From Gemmatimonadota bacterium (GTDB lineage: Bacteria; Gemmatimonadota; Gemmatimonadetes; Longimicrobiales; Gaopeijiaceae): a DNA stretch of 36,585 bases. The notes below the pieces were generated by a model. That model was not told the origin of the DNA. It searched no databases and saw only the letters and a list, made by a program, of their open reading frames with translations. The translations under genes and the position numbers were made by a program. The stretch covers positions 3,660 through 40,244 of the forward strand of contig VXMI01000201.1 in the NCBI GenBank assembly GCA_009841165.1, given 5' to 3'. How positions within the stretch are numbered: the stretch's first letter is position 1; each line of letters begins with the position of its first letter. Of the stretch, positions 3-10,767 are shown one piece after another.

Positions 3-2510
3 GAGCTGAACCTCAGCTGGAACAACCTGACCGGCCCGATCCCACCGGAACTGGGGCAGTTGGGCAATCTGCGGCACTTGTACCTGCTCGAAAACCGCCT
101 GTCGGGACACATCCCGCCGGAACTGGGGTCGCTACGGGAACTCCTGCGGTTGTCTCTGGGCGGGAACCTGCTGACGCGCACCATCCCGCGGGAACTAGGC
201 GACCTGGCCAAGCTGAAATCCTTGAACCTCAACGTCAACCGATTGGAGGGCACGATTCCGCCGGAACTGGGAAACCTCACCGAGTTGACAAGGCTCAGGC
301 TGGATCAAAACGAGCTGGAGGGTCAGATCCCATCGCAACTGGGCGGCCTGACCAAGCTCTCCGGGATGAATCTCGGCTGGAACAACCTGACCGGGCCGAT
401 CCCACCGGAACTGGGCAACCTCGCGAACCTTGTGGGGCTGAATCTCGACAACAATGAACTAACAGGACCGATTCCGTCCGAGTTGGGCAGCCTTACCAAG
501 TTGTTCGGCCTGGCCTTGGCCAATAACGACCTGACGGGACGGATTCCGCCTTGGGTGGTCGACCGTAAGTCACTTGCTCAGCTGCGCCTCGGCGGGAACG
601 CGCTCACGGGACCGATTCCTCCAGGGTTGGGCAGCCTTACCCAATTGACCAGCCTGTATCTGGCTGGCAACCAACTCACGGGACCGATCCCACCGGAACT
701 CGGAAACCTGCACCAACTGGAACGGCTCAGCCTGGGTTCCAATCGATTGACGGGCTCGGTCCCGCCGGAACTGGGGCACCTCCGCAGGTTGGTCTCCCTT
801 ACGCTGAGCGGCAATCTGCTGACCGGTTCGATTCCGGAGACCTTCGTCGAACTGAACAATCTGGTCACTCTGGGCTGCCGCAGGACCGAGGGCGTCTGCT
901 TGCCGGCGACGGTGGCATTCCGGGACTGGGCCCGTCAGGTGGAAGCCCGCGGAGGCATCCAGAATGCGATTGATATCCCGTGGTGCGACGAAATCGATGC
1001 TTACGCGCTGCGGCGCCTCTACCAGGCCACGAACGGCGACCGCTGGACGGGCTCCGACGGTTGGCTTGAAAACGAGGACCTGGGCCGGTGGCGCGGCGTG
1101 CGGACCGATTCGGACGGGCGGGTTACCGGCCTCGATCTGAGCGGCAACGGGCTGTCGGGCCACCTTCCGGACGCGATGGGACTGCTCGCGAACCTGACCG
1201 AACTGAAGGTCGGGGACAATGCGCTGAGCGGCCGGATGCCCTTGTCGCTCGCGGACCTGCCGCTCCAGGAGTTCGACTACTCCGAAACGTCGCTGTGCGT
1301 CGCGGACGATGCCGGCTTCCGCCAATGGTTGAACGGCATCCCGCGCCACGTGGGAACTGCCGCTCTGTGTCCGCCACTCTCCCAACGCGAGGCCCTCGAA
1401 TGGTTGTTCCGGCGAACGGACGGATCGGGTTGGAACGAGAGCACCGGCTGGCTGTCCGACGTCCCGTTGGAGAACTGGCACGGCGTGCAGACCAACGCCT
1501 CCGGGCAGGTCGTCGCGCTTTCGCTCCGGGGGAACGGCTTGTCGGGACCGATTCCGCCGGAGATCGCCGAGCTCCCGGCCGTCACTCACGTTGACCTGGG
1601 CTCAAACCGCCTCGAAGGCCGGATTCCTGATGAGATCGGCCGACTATCCGAGTTGCGTGTTCTGGACCTGATCGATAACGCGTTGGCGGGACCGATTCCG
1701 CCGGAGATCGGTGGGCTGTCGAAGCTGACCACGCTGAACCTCGGGGGTAACCGACTTTCGGATGCAATCCCGGTAGAGATAGGCCGGCTGTCCGAGTTGC
1801 GCAGGCTGGAACTGGGCGCGAACAACCTCTCCGGGCCGATCCCGTCCGAGGTGGGTGACTTGAGCCGTCTGGAGCGGTTGAGCCTCGGTTGGAATCAGCT
1901 CAGTGGCGAGATCCCCGGCGAGCTTGCACGACTATCGTCGCTCAGGCGCCTGGATCTTGGAGACAACGTGCTATCGGGCTCTATCCCGTCGGAATTGGGC
2001 ACTCTGAGCGAGCTTGTGGAAATCCGGCTCGGTCGCAATCGGCTCAACGGAGCGATTCCCGAGGAGATCGGTCGCCTCGCGAACCTGGTTCGGCTCGACC
2101 TGGCCGACAACGATCTGTCGGGTCCGGTGCCGGCGGAACTGGGCGCCTTGAGCCACCTGGAGGGCTTCCTCCTCCAGTCGAACCAGCTCAGCGGAGAGAT
2201 TCCCGAGGAGATCGGTCGCCTCGCGAAGCTGGTTCGGCTTGACCTGGCCGACAACCAACTCTCGGGACCGATCCCGTCGGCCCTTGGCGACCTCACGAAC
2301 CTGGTCGAACTGAACCTGGGCGACAACCGGTTGACCGGGCGGCTGCTCGCCGATCTGGGACGCGCCACCAAACTGGAGAATCTCGATCTGCGGTCCAACG
2401 CGCTGTCCGGTCCGGTGCCGTCCGAACTCGCTGACCTCACGCTGCTGAAGTTCCTGATTCTGGCGGACAACCCGGATCTGGCCGGGCCGCTCCCTCAGGG
2501 CATCAAGGCG
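3..2510 (+). repeat. Tandem LRR-coding DNA repeats (72-bp period)
   Basis: The LRR blocks are also visible as DNA repeats of about 72 bp, with near-identical cores such as CCGATCCCACCGGAACTGGG recurring near 37, 397 and 684. The blocks are broken by non-repeat cap modules around 850-1110 and 1270-1500. Such repeats can change copy number by recombination and are liable to assembly collapse. Confidence 0.7.
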
Positions 2511-4136
2511 CTCGAGCAACTCGAGCGGTTCATGGCGGGAGGTACGGGTTTGTGCCGGCCGGCGGATTCCGGCTTCGACGCGTGGTTCGCCGGCATACCC
2601 GAACGCCGTCTGTTGCGCTGTGCAGGAGGAGCCGCGGTCTACCTGACCCAGGCCGTGCAGTCGTGGGACGATCCGGTGCCGCTGCTGGCGGGCAAACCGG
2701 CGCTGCTTCGCGTCTTCGTCACGGCACCACCGGAAGCCGCCGTGACGATGCCGGAAGTACGGGCCACCTTCCATGTCAACGGCACCGAAAGGCACACCAT
2801 CCTTATCGCCGCCCGGATGCAGCCCATCCCCTCGGAAGTCAGGGAAGGGGATCTTGAGGTTTCCGTCAATGCCGAGGTGCCGGACTGGCTCATCGTGCCC
2901 GGCCTGGAGATGGTGATCGAGGTCGACCCGGATCAGACTCTCGACCCGGCCCTGGGCGTGACGAAGCGAATTCCCGAGGAGGGCCGAATCGCCGTGGACG
3001 TGCGGGCCGTGCCCCCTCTACACTTGACACTCGTTCCGCTTCTCCCCGAGTCCGATCCGGACTCGTCCATCGTCGCATCCGTCCTGGCGATGGCGGAGGA
3101 TCCCGATGGCCACGAGTTGCTGGACGACGTTCGGACGCTGCTTCCGATAACCGAGTTCACCGTCACGGCACACGAACCTGTCGCGACATCCTTCAGGGAT
3201 CCATTCCGGCTGATTCGCGAAACTGAAGCGATGCGTCTGATGGAGGGAGGTTCGGGATACTGGATGGGCATAATCCAGCCACCGCCGAGGACCGGAGGCT
3301 CAGACTGGTACTATCTGTTGCCAATCGGAGTAGCGTACGCGGGCGGGCAAGCCAGCGTGTCGATCCGCGAGGCTTCGGTCATCGCCCACGATCTGGGACA
3401 CAACCTGTCGCTGTTACACGCCCCCTGTGGCGGGCCGCGGGGCGTCGATCCCTGGTTTCCATATCCCATCGGAAACACGGGCGCGTGGGGATACGACTTC
3501 GCGGAGAAGGCGCTGGTGGGCCCGGACACGCCGGACTTGATGTCCTACTGTGGACCACCGGACTGGATCAGCGACTTCTTCTTCAACAAGGCGCTCAACC
3601 ACCGTCTTGCCGAGGACGGCGCCACGGCGGCCGCGATGGCCGACGAGGCGAATCCCGAGCGCACGCTCCTGTTGTGGGGCGGACGGGACGAGGATGGCCT
3701 TCCGTACCTGGATCCCGCTTTCGTCGTTGACGCCGCGCCCTCTCTGCCAGTCGCTGGAGGGGACTACACCATCGACGGCGCGACCGTTGATGGCACTCCC
3801 GTCTTCTCGCTTGCCTTCGATATGCCCGTCATCGCGGACGCCGAGGGTGAAGAGTCCAGCTTCGTATTCGCCCTGCCTGTCCAATCGGGCTGGGAGGACA
3901 GCCTGGCGAGCATCACGCTGTCCGGCCCCGGAGGTTTGGCCGTGCTGGACGAAACCACCAATGAACCCATAGCCATCTTCCGCGACCCCCGGACCGGCCA
4001 GGTACGCGGATTCCTGCAGGATCCGGCTCTCGCGGGGACCCAGGTCGCGGCGGACGCAATGGAAGGTGCCGTCGGGCAGGCGATGGAAGTGCTCTTCAGC
4101 CGAGGCATTCCCGGACGCGAGGCGTGGAGGCGATGA
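3..4136 (+). CDS. Large LRR protein with C-terminal metzincin-like metalloprotease domain (5' end outside window)
   Basis: The reading frame is open from the first bases, already inside LRRs, so the N-terminus and signal peptide lie upstream and no start is assigned. Repeats follow the plant-specific 24-residue type (LxxLxLxxNxLxGxIPxxLGxL). Three LRR blocks are seen: about 3-840, 1005-1270 and 1385-2510. The second and third begin with an N-cap-like ATNGDxW...GWL / RTDGSGW...GWL module, and each block ends with a Cys/Trp cap (for example GLCRPADSGFDAWFAGIP near 2550). From about 2630 a beta-rich domain starts, followed by a zinc-site motif HDLGHNLSLLH at 3387-3419 and a Met-turn-like LMSYC near 3540, then a beta-type tail. 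Known: metzincins use HExxHxxGxxH plus a Met-turn; here the general-base Glu is Asp. Inferred: a secreted or surface adhesion/processing protein. The LRR assignment is firm; catalytic activity is doubtful. Confidence 0.85.
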   Translation, partial: ELNLSWNNLTGPIPPELGQLGNLRHLYLLENRLSGHIPPELGSLRELLRLSLGGNLLTRTIPRELGDLAKLKSLNLNVNRLEGTIPPELGNLTELTRLRLDQNELEGQIPSQLGGLTKLSGMNLGWNNLTGPIPPELGNLANLVGLNLDNNELTGPIPSELGSLTKLFGLALANNDLTGRIPPWVVDRKSLAQLRLGGNALTGPIPPGLGSLTQLTSLYLAGNQLTGPIPPELGNLHQLERLSLGSNRLTGSVPPELGHLRRLVSLTLSGNLLTGSIPETFVELNNLVTLGCRRTEGVCLPATVAFRDWARQVEARGGIQNAIDIPWCDEIDAYALRRLYQATNGDRWTGSDGWLENEDLGRWRGVRTDSDGRVTGLDLSGNGLSGHLPDAMGLLANLTELKVGDNALSGRMPLSLADLPLQEFDYSETSLCVADDAGFRQWLNGIPRHVGTAALCPPLSQREALEWLFRRTDGSGWNESTGWLSDVPLENWHGVQTNASGQVVALSLRGNGLSGPIPPEIAELPAVTHVDLGSNRLEGRIPDEIGRLSELRVLDLIDNALAGPIPPEIGGLSKLTTLNLGGNRLSDAIPVEIGRLSELRRLELGANNLSGPIPSEVGDLSRLERLSLGWNQLSGEIPGELARLSSLRRLDLGDNVLSGSIPSELGTLSELVEIRLGRNRLNGAIPEEIGRLANLVRLDLADNDLSGPVPAELGALSHLEGFLLQSNQLSGEIPEEIGRLAKLVRLDLADNQLSGPIPSALGDLTNLVELNLGDNRLTGRLLADLGRATKLENLDLRSNALSGPVPSELADLTLLKFLILADNPDLAGPLPQGIKALEQLERFMAGGTGLCRPADSGFDAWFAGIPERRLLRCAGGAAVYLTQAVQSWDDPVPLLAGKPALLRVFVTAPPEAAVTMPEVRATFHVNGTERHTILIAARMQPIPSEVREGDLEVSVNAEVPDWLIVPGLEMVIEVDPDQTLDPALGVTKRIPEEGRIAVDVRAVPPLHLTLVPLLPESDPDSSIVASVLAMAEDPDGHELLDDVRTLLPITEFTVTAHEPVATSFRDPFRLIRETEAMRLMEGGSGYWMGIIQPPPRTGGSDWYYLLPIGVAYAGGQASVSIREASVIAHDLGHNLSLLHAPCGGPRGVDPWFPYPIGNTGAWGYDFAEKALVGPDTPDLMSYCGPPDWISDFFFNKALNHRLAEDGATAAAMADEANPERTLLLWGGRDEDGLPYLDPAFVVDAAPSLPVAGGDYTIDGATVDGTPVFSLAFDMPVIADAEGEESSFVFALPVQSGWEDSLASITLSGPGGLAVLDETTNEPIAIFRDPRTGQVRGFLQDPALAGTQVAADAMEGAVGQAMEVLFSRGIPGREAWRR

Positions 4137-4409: not shown

Positions 4410-6407
4410 ATGCTGAGGTTCGCCGAAGAGATCCTCGTTCTCGTTCTGGACGAGGCGCGCGGCGAGCTGGCCCCCGCCCTGCCAGCGCGCTCGTTCGACC
4501 TGGCACTCGCCGGTGCCGTGCTGATGGATCTCGCACTCGAGGATCGCATCGACACGGATCCCGAGCGGCTGATTCTCGTCGACTCCACACCCCTCGGCGA
4601 CGACATCCTGGACCCGACGCTCTCCGAGATCGCCAGCGCCGGCGAAACGCATGACACCGGCTACTGGCTGGAGTGGACGGCACGGCGGGGACGCCGGATC
4701 CGCAAGGCCGCCCTGGCGCGCCTGACCGAACGCGGCGTACTCAGGTCCGAAGCGCACGGGGTCCTGTCGCTGACCCCCTCGGTGTCCCGGTCCCGACGCT
4801 ACCCCGTCTCGGACGGGCAACCGGTCGAAGAAGCCCGGCTGCGGATCATGCGGATCCTGTTCAGCGACGACGTTCCCGACCCGCGCGACATCGCGATCAT
4901 CGCCCTCGCGAACGCCTGCGGCGTATTCCGCACCATTCTTTCGTCCGAGGAGCGGGAGCAGGTACGGGACCGCATCGATCTGCTGAAAAACCTCGACCTG
5001 ATCGGCCGGACCATGAGCCTGGCGATCGAGGGTCTGGACGCGCCCGATGAACCGGCGCCGGAGCCTCGCCGACCGAAAGAGATCCCGGTGGTGCCGGGCC
5101 TGCCGCTGCTGGGCAACGGCCTGGCCATGCGGAGGGGACTGGTGGCCTTTCTTGCCCGCCAGTACCGCGAACTGGGCCCGATCTTCCGGATACGCGCTCC
5201 GGGGCGCCGGTTCGTGTGCATCGCGGGGCCGGAGGCGGCCAACTTCCTCACCTCGCACGGCAAGACCGTCTTCCGGTCGCTCGAGCCCATGGCGAGTATG
5301 CACAACCAGATGGACTCGTCGCGTTCGATCGTGACCATGGACGGGATCGATCACGTCACCACGCGGAAGGCCCAGGCCAAGGGATACGCGGTCCGGATCA
5401 TGCGGAACCGGGCGCAGGAGGTCGTCGACATCACGCGCGACGAGATCGGCAAGTGGTCGGTGGGAGAGCCGTTCGAGGCGTTGCCGGCGTTCCAGGACGT
5501 GATCGGCGAGCAGATGGGCCACATGATGGCGGGCTATTCGCCGGAGGGCTACACGCGAGATCTGTCCACGCTGCTGGGCGGACTGCTCCTCAGCGCCGCG
5601 ACGGTTCCACACGTCATGAGACTCGGGCGATTCCGCCGTGCGCGCGAACGGGCCCGCGAGCTGGCCCAGGCGGTCCTCGCACACAAGCGCAAGGTGGGTC
5701 CGCGCAGAACTACGCCCGACTTCATCGACCTGATGCTCGAGCTGCGCGAAGCCGATCCCCAGCTTCTTCCCGAGACCAACCTGCCCCTGACGGTGCTCGC
5801 GCCCTACATGGTGGGACTGGACACCACGGCGAGCACGTGCGCGTTCATGATCTACAACGTCGTGAAACACCCGCAGATCATGGAGAGCATGACCGCCGAG
5901 GCGGACGCCCTGTTCGATCGGGGCCGCGTGAGCGCCGAGGGCCTTAAGAACCTCGATGTCGCGCGCCGCGTGGCGATGGAGACCCTGCGGCTTCACCCTG
6001 TTTCGCCCGCCGTGCTGCGGACGACCGCCAACTCGTTCGAGTTCGCGGGTCACCGGGTTCGGGCGGGCACGCAGGTCATGATCGGAACCGCCGTCGGGCA
6101 CACGCTCGAAGAGTACTTCCCCGACCCGGAGCGCTTCGACATCGACCGCTACACGCCGGCCCGCGGCGAACACCGGCAGCGCGGCGCCTACGCTCCCTTC
6201 GGGGCCGGGAATCACCGGTGTCTCGGGAGCGGTCTCGTCCCGGTCCAGCTCGCGCTTACCATGGCCACGATCCTGCGAGAACTCGAACTGGAGCCGCTCG
6301 CGCCCGGCTACGCGCTGCGCGTGAGGTCGTTCCCGACCATGCAGCCGATGGACTTTCGAATCCGCGTCCTGCGCCGACGGGCACACAGCGTCGCCGCCAC
6401 GGCGTAG
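4410..6407 (+). CDS. GPP34 (GOLPH3-like) domain - cytochrome P450 fusion
   Basis: This is a 665-residue protein in two parts. Residues 1 to about 205 match the GPP34/GOLPH3 fold (RFAEEILVLVLDEARGEL, then LALAGAVLMDLALEDRI). In eukaryotes this family binds phosphatidylinositol-4-phosphate; bacterial members have no settled role. After a Pro-rich linker, residues from about 225 form a cytochrome P450: proline-rich VPGLPLLGNG, I-helix VGLDTTAS (5811-5834), ExxR as ETLR (5979-5990), and heme loop FGAGNHRCLG with Cys604 (codon 6219). P450s insert one oxygen atom into a substrate using external electrons; no ferredoxin or reductase gene is nearby. I chose ATG 4410 because the 48 in-frame codons upstream (from 4266) are Arg-rich with no family similarity; no clear ribosome site is seen at either start. 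The 273 bp before 4410 show nothing else. The next gene starts 14 bp downstream. Substrate unknown. Confidence 0.88.
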   Translation: MLRFAEEILVLVLDEARGELAPALPARSFDLALAGAVLMDLALEDRIDTDPERLILVDSTPLGDDILDPTLSEIASAGETHDTGYWLEWTARRGRRIRKAALARLTERGVLRSEAHGVLSLTPSVSRSRRYPVSDGQPVEEARLRIMRILFSDDVPDPRDIAIIALANACGVFRTILSSEEREQVRDRIDLLKNLDLIGRTMSLAIEGLDAPDEPAPEPRRPKEIPVVPGLPLLGNGLAMRRGLVAFLARQYRELGPIFRIRAPGRRFVCIAGPEAANFLTSHGKTVFRSLEPMASMHNQMDSSRSIVTMDGIDHVTTRKAQAKGYAVRIMRNRAQEVVDITRDEIGKWSVGEPFEALPAFQDVIGEQMGHMMAGYSPEGYTRDLSTLLGGLLLSAATVPHVMRLGRFRRARERARELAQAVLAHKRKVGPRRTTPDFIDLMLELREADPQLLPETNLPLTVLAPYMVGLDTTASTCAFMIYNVVKHPQIMESMTAEADALFDRGRVSAEGLKNLDVARRVAMETLRLHPVSPAVLRTTANSFEFAGHRVRAGTQVMIGTAVGHTLEEYFPDPERFDIDRYTPARGEHRQRGAYAPFGAGNHRCLGSGLVPVQLALTMATILRELELEPLAPGYALRVRSFPTMQPMDFRIRVLRRRAHSVAATA

Positions 6408-6421
6408 CTCCCGTAGCTCCA

Positions 6422-7615
6422 GTGACGGGCGTCCGGCCACAGGCCAGCATTCCGCGCTACCACTCCCTCGACCGACTGCGGGCAGCCATGATGCTGCTCG
6501 CGGTGGCCCGTCACGCCGCGGTCAGCTACGTGCCCGTCGTCTTCTTCGAATGGCCGTACCGGGACCCCCAGGCCGACATGCTCTCCTACTGGGTGGTCAT
6601 CTTCATCCGCGTGTTCAACCTGCCCGTATTCTTCGCAATTGCGGGTTTCTTCGCAGCCTACCTGCTCGACACACGCGGCACGCAAGAGTTCCTGCGGCAC
6701 CGATGGAGCCGGATCGGGGTGCCGTTCCTGGTAGCGTGGCCCCTCCTTGGGGTCACGATGTTCTTCATCGTGCCGTTCGCGGCCCAGTTCAGCGCCACCC
6801 CGCCGAACGCCGCCTACAGCCTCGCGGAGCTGACCTCTTCCAGGGCCCTGGACCACCTGTTCATGCACCTGTGGTTCCTCTACCACCTGCTGATCCTGTG
6901 CGTGGCCACCACTGCAATCCGCCCGCTGGCCGCCCGGATACCCGCAGCCCTGCGCGCCCGGGCGATGGACCTCTTCGAGCGGGGGGTGCACCGAGGAGGC
7001 ATCGCGGTGCTGATTCTGGCCGCGGGCCTCATCCTGTACCGGATGGAGTCGTGGGCGATCGACTACTACGCCGGCCCGTTCCCCGCCCCGCGCCAGCTGG
7101 CGCTGTACGGCCTGTTCTTCGGGTTCGGGTGGATGCTGTTTCGCAAGCGCGAGACGCTGGAGGGCTTCAAGCGCCCCACATGGGCTCTGCTCGCCGCCGG
7201 AGTGCTGTGCTTTCTCGTGTACCGTCACTTCTTCGAGCTCGGCTGCCCCCCCAGGCCTGACAGAACGTGCCCGGAGGCTGCCGAGGGACACCTGCCGGCG
7301 GTTGTCTTCCTCGCGCTCTCGATGTGGCTCATGACGTATGGCCTGATCGGACTGTTCCTGCGCTACCTGGACATGCCGAGCCCGCGCTGGCGGTACATGG
7401 CGGACGCTTCGTACTGGATCTACATCGTGCATGTGCCGTTCGTGATGCTGTTGCCCATTCCGCTGGCGGGCGTGCCGCTTCCCGGGGTCGTCAAATCTGC
7501 GCTCGTCGCGGTCATGGCGATCGGATTGATCCTTGTGACCTACCACTACCTGGTCCGACCGACGTTCATCGGGAAACAGCTGAACGGGCGCCGCTATCCG
7601 CGAGGGACGACTTGA
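6422..7615 (+). CDS. Acyltransferase family 3 (AT3/OpgC-like) membrane protein
   Basis: This 397-residue integral membrane protein has about ten hydrophobic segments. The N-terminus YHSLDRLRAAMMLLAVARH matches the AT3 signature (LDxLRxxAxLxVxxxH), in which the His in the first membrane helix is thought to be catalytic. A late segment, ASYWIYIVHVPFVMLL, is also typical of the family. AT3 proteins move acyl groups (acetyl, succinyl or longer) onto sugars, glucans, lipids or small molecules at the inner membrane. The GTG start at 6422 lies 14 bp after the P450 stop; longer frames run into the P450 gene and lose similarity. The stop overlaps the next gene by 4 bp (TTGA), so translation is probably coupled. 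Inferred: it may acylate the P450 product or a lipid carrying it. The family call is firm; the acceptor is unknown. Confidence 0.85.
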   Translation: MTGVRPQASIPRYHSLDRLRAAMMLLAVARHAAVSYVPVVFFEWPYRDPQADMLSYWVVIFIRVFNLPVFFAIAGFFAAYLLDTRGTQEFLRHRWSRIGVPFLVAWPLLGVTMFFIVPFAAQFSATPPNAAYSLAELTSSRALDHLFMHLWFLYHLLILCVATTAIRPLAARIPAALRARAMDLFERGVHRGGIAVLILAAGLILYRMESWAIDYYAGPFPAPRQLALYGLFFGFGWMLFRKRETLEGFKRPTWALLAAGVLCFLVYRHFFELGCPPRPDRTCPEAAEGHLPAVVFLALSMWLMTYGLIGLFLRYLDMPSPRWRYMADASYWIYIVHVPFVMLLPIPLAGVPLPGVVKSALVAVMAIGLILVTYHYLVRPTFIGKQLNGRRYPRGTT

Positions 7616-10600
7616 GGGCGGCGGGCGGCCCGATCGCCTGGATGGCCCGCAACCGCGTCGCGGCCAACCTCCTGATGGTCGGGATCCTGGCGGCCGGACT
7701 CTTCTCTCTCGGGAGCCTCGACCAGGAGGTGCTGCCGGAACACTCGCTGGACCGGATTCAGGTCTCGGTCCCCTACCCGGGCGCGTCCCCGGCAGAGGTG
7801 GACGAATCGATCGTCCGAAGGATCGAGGAGCGGATTCGGTCGATCGAGGGGATCAGGAGCGTCCAATCGGTGGCCTCGGAGGGACTCGGGTCGGTTGTCG
7901 CCGAACTCGCCCGAGCCGCCGACGCCGACAGGGCGCTGGAGGAAATCAAGGCGGCCGTCGACGGAATCCCGACATTCCCGGCGGGCGCCGAGCGGCCCGC
8001 AGTGACCGAAATGACGTCGCGCCGCAGCGTCATGCGGATCGCCCTCTACGGAGATGTCCAGGAGCGTACACTCAAGGAGCTGGCGCACCGCGTCGAGGAC
8101 GAACTCTCGTCGCTCGCGGCAGTTTCGCACGTGCGGACGAGCAGCGTGCGCGACTACGAGATCTCGATCGAGGTGCCGACAAGCCGTCTGAACGCGCTGG
8201 GCCTCACGCTGGCGGACGTGGCCGCCGCGGTCCGGAGCGGTACGCTTGAGCTGTCGGCGGGAAGCATCGACACGCCGGGCGAGCAGGTCCGGATCCGGAC
8301 CGCCGGCCGCAGCTACAACCAGCACGACTTCGAGAACATCATCGTGCTGGCCACGGGCGACGGGACCACGGTGCGGCTAGGGGACATCGCCGAAGTGCGC
8401 GACGGCTTCGCGGACGGAGGACTGGTCAGCCGCTACAACGGACAACCGGCCGCCTTCATCGAGGTCTACAGGACCGCGGATGAGCGCGTTCTGGACATCG
8501 CCGAAGCCGTCGAGCGGCAACTGCGGGAGAGTGTGGCGCCGGGGCTGCCGCCGGGGGTGGGGGTGGACATCTGGAGCAACGACGCGGACCCCCTCGCGGC
8601 CCGCCTCGGCCTGATGCTCAAGAACGGATTCCTGGGACTCCTGCTGGTGCTGGGCGTGCTCACGCTGTTCCTGGACCTCAGGCTTGCGTTCTGGGTTGCC
8701 GCGGGCATCGCGGTCTCGTTCGTCGGGACCCTGGCCGTCATGGCGGTGCTCGACGTCTCGATCAACCTGACCTCCCTCTTCGCCTTCATTCTGGCCGTCG
8801 GGATCGTCGTGGACGACGCGGTCGTGGTGGGCGAGAACATCGCGGCGGAGCGCGAACGCGGACACGGCGGGCCGGCGGCGGCCATCCGGGGCGCCCGGCG
8901 CGTGAGGGCACCGGTGACTTTCGGCGTCCTCACCACCATGGCTGCCTTCCTCCCTCTGTTTTTCGTCCCCAGCTCGGTCGGAGCGATGGCCGAGGCGATC
9001 CCCGTAATCGTGATTTCGGTGCTGGCGTTCTCGCTGCTGGAGTCGCTGCTGGTTCTGCCCCACCACCTCTCCAGGCTGCCTGCGGGCGGCTCTTCGGCTC
9101 CGCGCGGGCCTGCCACCGCTCGCCTTCACACGCGCGCGCAGGCCAGCGTCAACCGCGCGCTGGAGCGGTTCGTGAACGGTCCGCTGGATCGTCTCTTGCG
9201 CGTTGCGACAGCCCGGCCCGGGACCGTGGTCGCGGCGGGAGCGGGCACCCTCATCGTCGTCCTCGCCCTGGTTCCCGCCGGGATCGTCGGCGTGGCGTTC
9301 ACGCCCACTGTCGAGGGCAACCTGGTGACCGCAACGCTGGAGATGCCCGAAGGCACGCCCCGGGCACGCACCGCCAACGTGGCCCAGCAACTGGAGGACG
9401 CCGGACGCCGGGCGGTCGACCGCTTGTCGACCGGACAGCCCGAGGGAGCGGAAGCGCTGGTGACCGGCGTTGCAGTCACTCTGGGGGGAGCACCGGAGAC
9501 GCTCGGAGCCGCCATCGTAGCATCGGGCGGCGCTCCCGAATCGGTGCCCCGCGCTCACATCGCGACGGTGCAGTTCAGGCTCCTCGATGCGCAACTCCGG
9601 ACGATCACCGCTTCAGCCCTTGAGCAGGCCTGGCGCGAGGAGGCCGCGCAGGTCACCCGCCACCGCAGCCTGTCCTTCAGCGCCAATCTCGTCGATCTGG
9701 GCCTGCCCGTGCACGTGGAACTCGCGCATCCGGATCCCCGTCGGCTGACGGCAGCCGCTGACACCGTCGCCACGATCCTGCGCGGGTTGCCGGGCGTTTT
9801 CGATGTCCGGTCGGACCAGGACCAGGGCGTCCGGGAGATCCAGCTCGACCTGAAGCCGGAAGCCCGTACGCTGGGCCTCGGTCTCGACGACCTCGCCCGT
9901 CAGGTCCGTGCCGCGTTCTTCGGCGAGGAGGTCGTCCGGCTGCAGCGGGGCCGGGAGGAGGTCCGCGTGTATGCGCGCCTCGCCGAGCACGAGCGTGACG
10001 CAATTGCCGATCTGGAGACCTACCGGGTTCGCACACCCGCGGGAGGCGCGGTCCACCTCGGCCAGGTCGCGGCGGCGAGGTTCGGCAATTCGCCCATCGT
10101 GATACGGCGCCAGGACGGCAGCCGCGTCGCAACCGTCACGGCCGACGCGCAGGGTCCCGCAACACCGGCGGCGATTCAGCGGCTGGACACGGTCCTGGAG
10201 GAAATGTCGGCCCGGGATCCCGGCCTCGAGCACTCGTTCGCCGGCGAGCGCCAAGAGGTGGCCGAGTCGATGGGGGCTCTCGGCATCGGCTTCGCCCTCT
10301 CGCTGTTCGCGATCTACGCGCTGCTGGCGATCCCGTTCCGCTCGTACGTCCGGCCGCTGATCGTGATGGCCGCGATCCCGTTCGGTCTGGTGGGCGCGGT
10401 GCTGGGCCACCTGCTGCTTGGGTTCGAGATCGCCGCCACCTCAATCTTCGGCTTCGTGGGGCTCAGCGGCGTGGTCGTCAACGACTCGATCGTGATGCTC
10501 GACTTCATCAGCGAGCGGCAGCGCGCGGGCATGCCCGTCCGCGACGCGATCATCGGCGGCGCCAAGGCGCGCTTCCGTCCGATCTTCCTGACCTCGCTGA

Positions 10601-10767
10601 CCACCTTCCTGGGCGTCGCGCCGCTCATTCTGGAGCAGGACCTGCAGGCGCGGTTCCTGATCCCCATGGCAGCCTCACTCGGCTTCGGAATCATCGCCGC
10701 GACCGGTGTGCTGATGGTGATCGTCCCGGCTCTCGCGACGCTGCAGATGGGGCGCGAGGGGCATTGA
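7612..10767 (+). CDS. RND-superfamily efflux transporter (AcrB/HAE1-like permease)
   Basis: This 1051-residue proton-driven RND permease is close to the usual family length. An N-terminal membrane helix (MARNRVAANLLMVGILAAGL) is followed by a periplasmic porter domain, then a helix cluster holding the paired acidic motif GIVVDDAVVVGENI (near 8800) needed for proton relay. A second porter domain and a second cluster with GVVVNDSIVMLDF (near 10465) follow. I chose the TTG start at 7612: it has GAGGG 5 nt upstream and overlaps the preceding stop as TTGA; ATG 7642 is an alternative. No membrane-fusion adaptor or outer-membrane channel gene is present, although such pumps normally need them, so it either uses partners encoded elsewhere or acts alone. 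Context with a P450 and an acyltransferase suggests export of a modified lipid or small molecule (inference). Confidence 0.93.
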   Translation: MRAAGGPIAWMARNRVAANLLMVGILAAGLFSLGSLDQEVLPEHSLDRIQVSVPYPGASPAEVDESIVRRIEERIRSIEGIRSVQSVASEGLGSVVAELARAADADRALEEIKAAVDGIPTFPAGAERPAVTEMTSRRSVMRIALYGDVQERTLKELAHRVEDELSSLAAVSHVRTSSVRDYEISIEVPTSRLNALGLTLADVAAAVRSGTLELSAGSIDTPGEQVRIRTAGRSYNQHDFENIIVLATGDGTTVRLGDIAEVRDGFADGGLVSRYNGQPAAFIEVYRTADERVLDIAEAVERQLRESVAPGLPPGVGVDIWSNDADPLAARLGLMLKNGFLGLLLVLGVLTLFLDLRLAFWVAAGIAVSFVGTLAVMAVLDVSINLTSLFAFILAVGIVVDDAVVVGENIAAERERGHGGPAAAIRGARRVRAPVTFGVLTTMAAFLPLFFVPSSVGAMAEAIPVIVISVLAFSLLESLLVLPHHLSRLPAGGSSAPRGPATARLHTRAQASVNRALERFVNGPLDRLLRVATARPGTVVAAGAGTLIVVLALVPAGIVGVAFTPTVEGNLVTATLEMPEGTPRARTANVAQQLEDAGRRAVDRLSTGQPEGAEALVTGVAVTLGGAPETLGAAIVASGGAPESVPRAHIATVQFRLLDAQLRTITASALEQAWREEAAQVTRHRSLSFSANLVDLGLPVHVELAHPDPRRLTAAADTVATILRGLPGVFDVRSDQDQGVREIQLDLKPEARTLGLGLDDLARQVRAAFFGEEVVRLQRGREEVRVYARLAEHERDAIADLETYRVRTPAGGAVHLGQVAAARFGNSPIVIRRQDGSRVATVTADAQGPATPAAIQRLDTVLEEMSARDPGLEHSFAGERQEVAESMGALGIGFALSLFAIYALLAIPFRSYVRPLIVMAAIPFGLVGAVLGHLLLGFEIAATSIFGFVGLSGVVVNDSIVMLDFISERQRAGMPVRDAIIGGAKARFRPIFLTSLTTFLGVAPLILEQDLQARFLIPMAASLGFGIIAATGVLMVIVPALATLQMGREGH

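Follow-up and report, generated by a model that had tools for sequence, protein, structure and literature searches.

The window, a stretch of 36,585 nucleotides from a Gemmatimonadota bacterium, contains a gene in which a GPP34 (GOLPH3-like) domain is joined to a cytochrome P450, followed by genes for an Acyltransferase 3 family membrane protein and an RND family transporter (Table 1). The fusion is encoded by a single open frame from ATG 4410 to the stop codon at 6405-6407. The match to the GPP34 family scores 127.9 bits (Pfam cut-off 29.1) and covers model positions 2-196 of 201, the match to the p450 family scores 185 bits (cut-off 23), and each half still matches its family when searched alone against Pfam. 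An earlier note, made from the letters of this DNA, had read the gene as a GPP34 domain within residues 1-205 fused to a P450, with both halves intact. The profile searches bear out this reading: the GPP34 domain is near full model length and all P450 catalytic motifs are present in the window copy, a PERF motif among them. A large leucine-rich-repeat protein gene (60-4136, + strand) lies directly upstream of the fusion, and leucine-rich-repeat genes (∼36% identity) are also found upstream of several other loci of the same group.

Table 1. Features of the GPP34-P450 locus and of the integrative element found in related genes. Positions refer to the window unless a locus is named.
Feature	Position	Strand or contig	Size or basis
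GPP34-P450 fusion gene, group A of the family	4410..6407	+	665 aa
GPP34 (GOLPH3-like) domain, residues 5-204	4422..5021	+	PF05719, E 7e-37
Linker between GPP34 and P450, residues 205-222, Pro/Glu-rich (approximate)	5022..5075	+	Pfam domain borders
Cytochrome P450 domain, residues 223-665	5076..6404	+	PF00067, E 3e-54
I-helix oxygen-activation motif GLDTT (469-473), acid-alcohol pair D471-T472	5814..5828	+	Motif alignment
K-helix ExxR motif ETLR (524-527)	5979..5990	+	Motif alignment
Haem-binding loop FGAGNHRCLG (597-606), Cys604 at 6219-6221	6198..6227	+	Motif alignment
Unoccupied attB	6219..6232	+	Core TGTCTCGGGAGCGG; one synonymous mismatch versus occupied-gene core TGYCTCGGCAGCGG
Acyltransferase 3 family membrane protein (start approximate)	6425..7615	+	PF01757, E 4e-24
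RND family transporter	7624..10767	+	Homology to RND permease of L114
Integrative element in a group A fusion gene	L040:6819-11824, L043:1-5003	VXQO01000113.1	Junction comparison

The frame is open further back, to ATG 4266. In an alignment of nine sequences, conservation sets in exactly at ATG 4410 and the DNA upstream of it is unconserved, so that translation most likely starts at 4410. No sign of a start confined to the P450 part was found. That two adjacent genes have been misread as one, with the true start at the P450, is hardly credible given the single open frame, the start conserved in the nine aligned sequences and a linkage kept in 61. An assembly artefact is excluded because the identical GPP34-P450 architecture recurs in independent assemblies. 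The long open frame that runs over the fusion gene on the opposite strand is taken to result from the high G+C content.

Four GPP34 genes occur in the source genome (4.27 Mb, 96.6% complete): two encode free-standing proteins and two are as long as a fusion, the second fusion being that of locus L114. GPP34 is present in 23/23 genomes of the genus, and a match above the cut-off occurs in 70 of the 395 genomes of a phylum sample. Usable fused sequences read from related Gemmatimonadota loci number 61 and were divided into groups A (containing the window gene), B, C and D by P450 score, B and C not being clean clades. The scan of the collection used exact peptides; it sees close relatives only and says nothing about occurrence outside the phylum. 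The nearest relatives are mostly from Gemmatimonadota MAGs, with one from the BD2-11 clade, which has featured in sponge papers, and the source bacterium may itself be sponge-dwelling. Two loci (L034 and L042) carry GenBank titles that say Gammaproteobacteria; the matching contigs (G271:C162 and G159:C100) are placed in the window's family, so that these are probably mislabelled MAGs.

When 119 GPP34 domains are placed in a maximum-likelihood tree, all of the fused ones form one clade (support 100/95) nested among the phylum's GPP34 proteins, with the free-standing proteins from the same genomes beside it; group A is likewise a clade (support 99/99). L139, labelled free-standing inside the fused clade, is a fused gene cut at the edge of the fetched locus (cf. 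L111). Pairwise distances in the GPP34 half and in the P450 half are correlated over the 61 sequences with r = 0.985, a value inflated by shared ancestry. The P450 parts of groups A and D are only ∼29% identical. Because the fused GPP34 parts form one clade, a single fusion event in these Gemmatimonadota, followed by duplication, fits best; this is the simplest and most likely reading, with the position of the tree root assumed. The dN/dS of the fused genes is 0.09-0.27 and they are under purifying selection. One locus (L100:7274-11445, − strand) carries a tandem pair of fusions, one of group C and one of group D, surrounded by Rieske, MPAB-type and RND genes.

The I-helix motif GLDTT is found in 19/19 group A sequences and is absent from group D and from three of the four group C sequences. 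Since these lack the acid-alcohol pair, they may not be ordinary monooxygenases; the haem loop of group D aligns as PYGLGTHRCLG, with the Cys retained. The nearest solved chain for the window P450 is a bacterial CYP51 (7jj1; E 9e-36, 127 bits, 408 residues), and for groups A and D alike bacterial CYP51 is the closest P450 of solved structure. Both fused P450s of this genome resemble it most. Assignment of the window P450 as a CYP51 sterol 14-alpha-demethylase was rejected, given GLDTT rather than His-Thr and a score of only 127 bits over that length. No redox partner is fused to the P450 half and none was recognised nearby.

The family profile of the GPP34 half matches the solved structures of GOLPH3 (3kn1, E 2e-22) and Vps74 (2zii, E 3e-21). 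The residues of GOLPH3 that bind PI4P are W81, R90, R171 and R174, and the R90L replacement on its own largely abolishes Golgi localisation (PMC13408441). In the alignment the equivalent residues of the window protein are P25, A34, R95 and R98. No family member aligned has counterparts of W81 and R90; group A mostly carries Asp at position 95, and it retains R98, which group D does not. With W81 and R90 lost family-wide and the R171 position variable, PI4P binding of the GOLPH3 type is not supported by the alignment and a phosphoinositide-like binding mode appears unlikely. This weakens the suggestion of a phosphoinositide-binding tether as in the eukaryotic relatives; peripheral membrane binding through another surface, as a tether or for lipid presentation, is plausible and agrees with the lipid-type gene neighbourhoods. 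The segment that corresponds to the beta-hairpin, hydrophobic and membrane-inserting in PI4P effectors of the GOLPH3 type, reads FLWVF in free-standing relatives, similar to FLLF in GOLPH3. In group A it reads GVLSLT. An AlphaFold model of the window protein, with nine close relatives as input, had a mean pLDDT of 37 and was discarded.

An Acyltransferase 3 gene lies directly downstream of every intact group A gene with a 3′ flank, and in L043 it lies behind the integrative element. With the MdoC model the acyltransferase scores 148 bits, short of the cut-off of 338, and it was not assigned as MdoC. No RND transporter was found beside other group A loci, and no Rieske gene near any group A locus. 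Around group D a Rieske oxygenase gene with a KshA_C domain (PF19298) occurs within a few kb in 26/32 loci, usually together with an RND pump; the KshA-type loci include five with an SdmB-like SDR (205 bits, below the cut-off of the SdmB model) and three with a 5-alpha-reductase-like Steroid_dh protein (PF02544, E 1e-52). Some loci have an FAD oxidase or MPAB-type oxygenase gene. The L114 locus of the source genome has the gene order Rieske, fusion, RND. Several steroid-type genes beside the P450 are seen for some group D paralogues and not at the window locus. The acyltransferase of group A, taken with the Rieske and steroid-type neighbours of group D, suggests polycyclic lipid chemistry for the GPP34-P450 family, and does so less strongly where the window gene itself is concerned.

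An integrative element that carries a tyrosine integrase splits the haem-loop codons in 10 of the 19 group A genes, from 10 genomes, and in these the frame departs from homology directly after CLGSG. On contig VXQO01000113.1 (L040 and L043) the remainder of the gene lies ∼10 kb on, behind the integrase (PF00589, E 2e-16), and the cargo of the element includes two GmrSD-like genes. Left junctions are also present in L037, L038, L041, L064, L073, L076, L078, L083 and L084, and right junctions were located in G002, G008, G012, G014, G019, G022 and G094. Both ends are constant, the left reading gene - TGYCTCGGCAGCGG - ATCTCCRGTGGTCAGAAT and the right GWTTGCAAA - TGCCTCGGCAGCGG - gene, and a 14-bp core is present twice, at both ends of the element. 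The haem-loop codons serve as the attachment site of this element; in the window copy the site is empty. Many relatives of the integrase occur per genome, several of them beside tRNA genes, so that the element belongs to a large family and stands out by its target. In many genomes of the genus one tyrosine integrase subfamily reaches 10-15 copies or more, several of them next to tRNA genes and others apparently inside or beside protein genes. At L154 (G008:C365) a 99% identical integrase is followed, ∼90 bases past its stop codon, by a right end in which the core breaks off after its first 12 bases and gives way to unrelated sequence, possibly an insertion at a second site.

The interrupted genes have no stop codon in their 608-codon parts, the split-off part is stop-free as well, and dN/dS among the 608-codon parts is as low as among intact genes. 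Repeated insertion in recent times and reversible insertion would each account for these observations. Judged by the known P450 fold, the truncated products are missing the C-terminal sheet as well as the helix that follows the haem Cys, and for this reason are probably inactive.

Neither squalene cyclase (PF13243) nor squalene epoxidase (PF08491) was matched in the source genome; de novo sterol synthesis was rejected on these grounds, and a sterol substrate would therefore need to be imported. In two genomes of the genus a 1125-residue frame (L193:7386-10760, + strand; L194:7765-11139, − strand) combines PF08491 squalene epoxidase with PF13243 squalene/oxidosqualene cyclase. A tie between the SMO-cyclase genes of G006 and G010 and GPP34-P450 was rejected, the genes not being adjacent. 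Fused SMO/OSC genes are mentioned in PMC10070321, and steroid gene clusters have been reported for sponge-symbiont MAGs in ten phyla (PMC9531527). A GPP34-P450 was not found in the text of either paper; the steroid context is already known and the fusion inside such a context appears to be new.

A function for GPP34-P450 can be proposed from sequence with moderate confidence. The full proposal is tentative, its chances falling a little short of even: a bacterial P450 family of single origin with an N-terminal GPP34 domain, held at the membrane and acting in polycyclic-lipid hydroxylation followed by O-acylation. The GPP34 domain would keep the enzyme on the membrane through some part of its surface outside the PI4P pocket, and the P450 would draw from the bilayer a water-insoluble polycyclic substrate, such as a sterol, steroid or similar triterpenoid, perhaps derived from a host. 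The group A P450, supplied with electrons by separate redox partners, would hydroxylate this substrate, and the hydroxylated product would be esterified by the membrane acyltransferase whose gene lies directly downstream. Several observations count against parts of this proposal. Steroid-type neighbours are a feature of group D, and of one or two group C loci, rather than of the window's own group; the acid-alcohol pair is missing in group D and three of the four group C sequences, so the reactions may differ between groups. Resemblance to CYP51 does not determine the substrate, and the PI4P pocket is lost.

The same loss of W81 and R90, the hairpin of group A, which is less hydrophobic than that of the free-standing proteins, and the binding of protein tails by GOLPH3 itself (PMC13408441) are consistent with GPP34 being a protein-protein or substrate-gating domain that docks, for example, a redox partner or acyltransferase, with the P450 tailoring a secondary metabolite exported by RND pumps, the genes for which adjoin many fusion copies. 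This alternative is considered less likely, as the steroid-type oxidative neighbours favour lipids over a typical biosynthetic cluster and no synthase was recognised nearby. That the fusion has little functional meaning, GPP34 being a stabilising passenger on an ordinary soluble P450, is improbable, as purifying selection acts on the gene and the halves have stayed together while the groups diverged. An extension of the membrane proposal, in which GPP34-P450s would be membrane-docked sterol-modifying enzymes of sponge-associated Gemmatimonadota, acting on polycyclic lipids of the host or their own, and the group A gene a switch, split at the haem loop and restored by precise excision of the element, is a decidedly long shot.

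GPP34-P450 is a real, conserved architecture for which no published description was found in open full text, although it may already be listed elsewhere; the earlier note likewise knew of no characterised protein of this kind. Nor did the literature searched contain any account of what GPP34 proteins do in bacteria. Being naturally fused with an enzyme of readable chemistry, the domain offers here a direct handle on its bacterial role, which the P450 substrate and the membrane partner, once known, would reveal. If the substrate is a sterol, the family bears on which organisms make or modify sponge sterols and hence on the interpretation of sponge biomarkers. The recurrent haem-loop insertion is in addition a clear case of a mobile element that lands in gene sequence encoding an enzyme's catalytic core.

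The nifD and fdxN elements and the sigK skin element are excisable gene-interrupting elements, and the element described here is like them in being site-specific, carrying its own recombinase and interrupting a conserved gene at one and the same codon; it differs in that insertion junctions only are seen and in its target, a P450 haem loop. A natural fusion of CYP51 to a ferredoxin is known from Methylococcus, whereas in the window protein the fused partner is N-terminal and is GPP34. Bacterial CYP51 (7jj1 and 6mcw) is the closest solved P450 for groups A and D, but identity is low and its I-helix has His-Thr where the window has GLDTT. The sponge-symbiont steroid clusters (PMC9531527) and the bacterial SMT/sdm clusters (PMC10070321) are similar in that Gemmatimonadota are among the phyla named and that an SdmB-like SDR adjoins some group D genes; the commonest of these clusters are built on ERG24-CYP51-LSS, whereas the source genome is without a cyclase. 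The domain is homologous to that of GOLPH3 and Vps74 over almost its entire length, with a Trp conserved in nearly all (W86 of the window protein aligning with W152 of GOLPH3), but the window protein is bacterial and fused to an enzyme, with W81 and R90 replaced and R171 variable.
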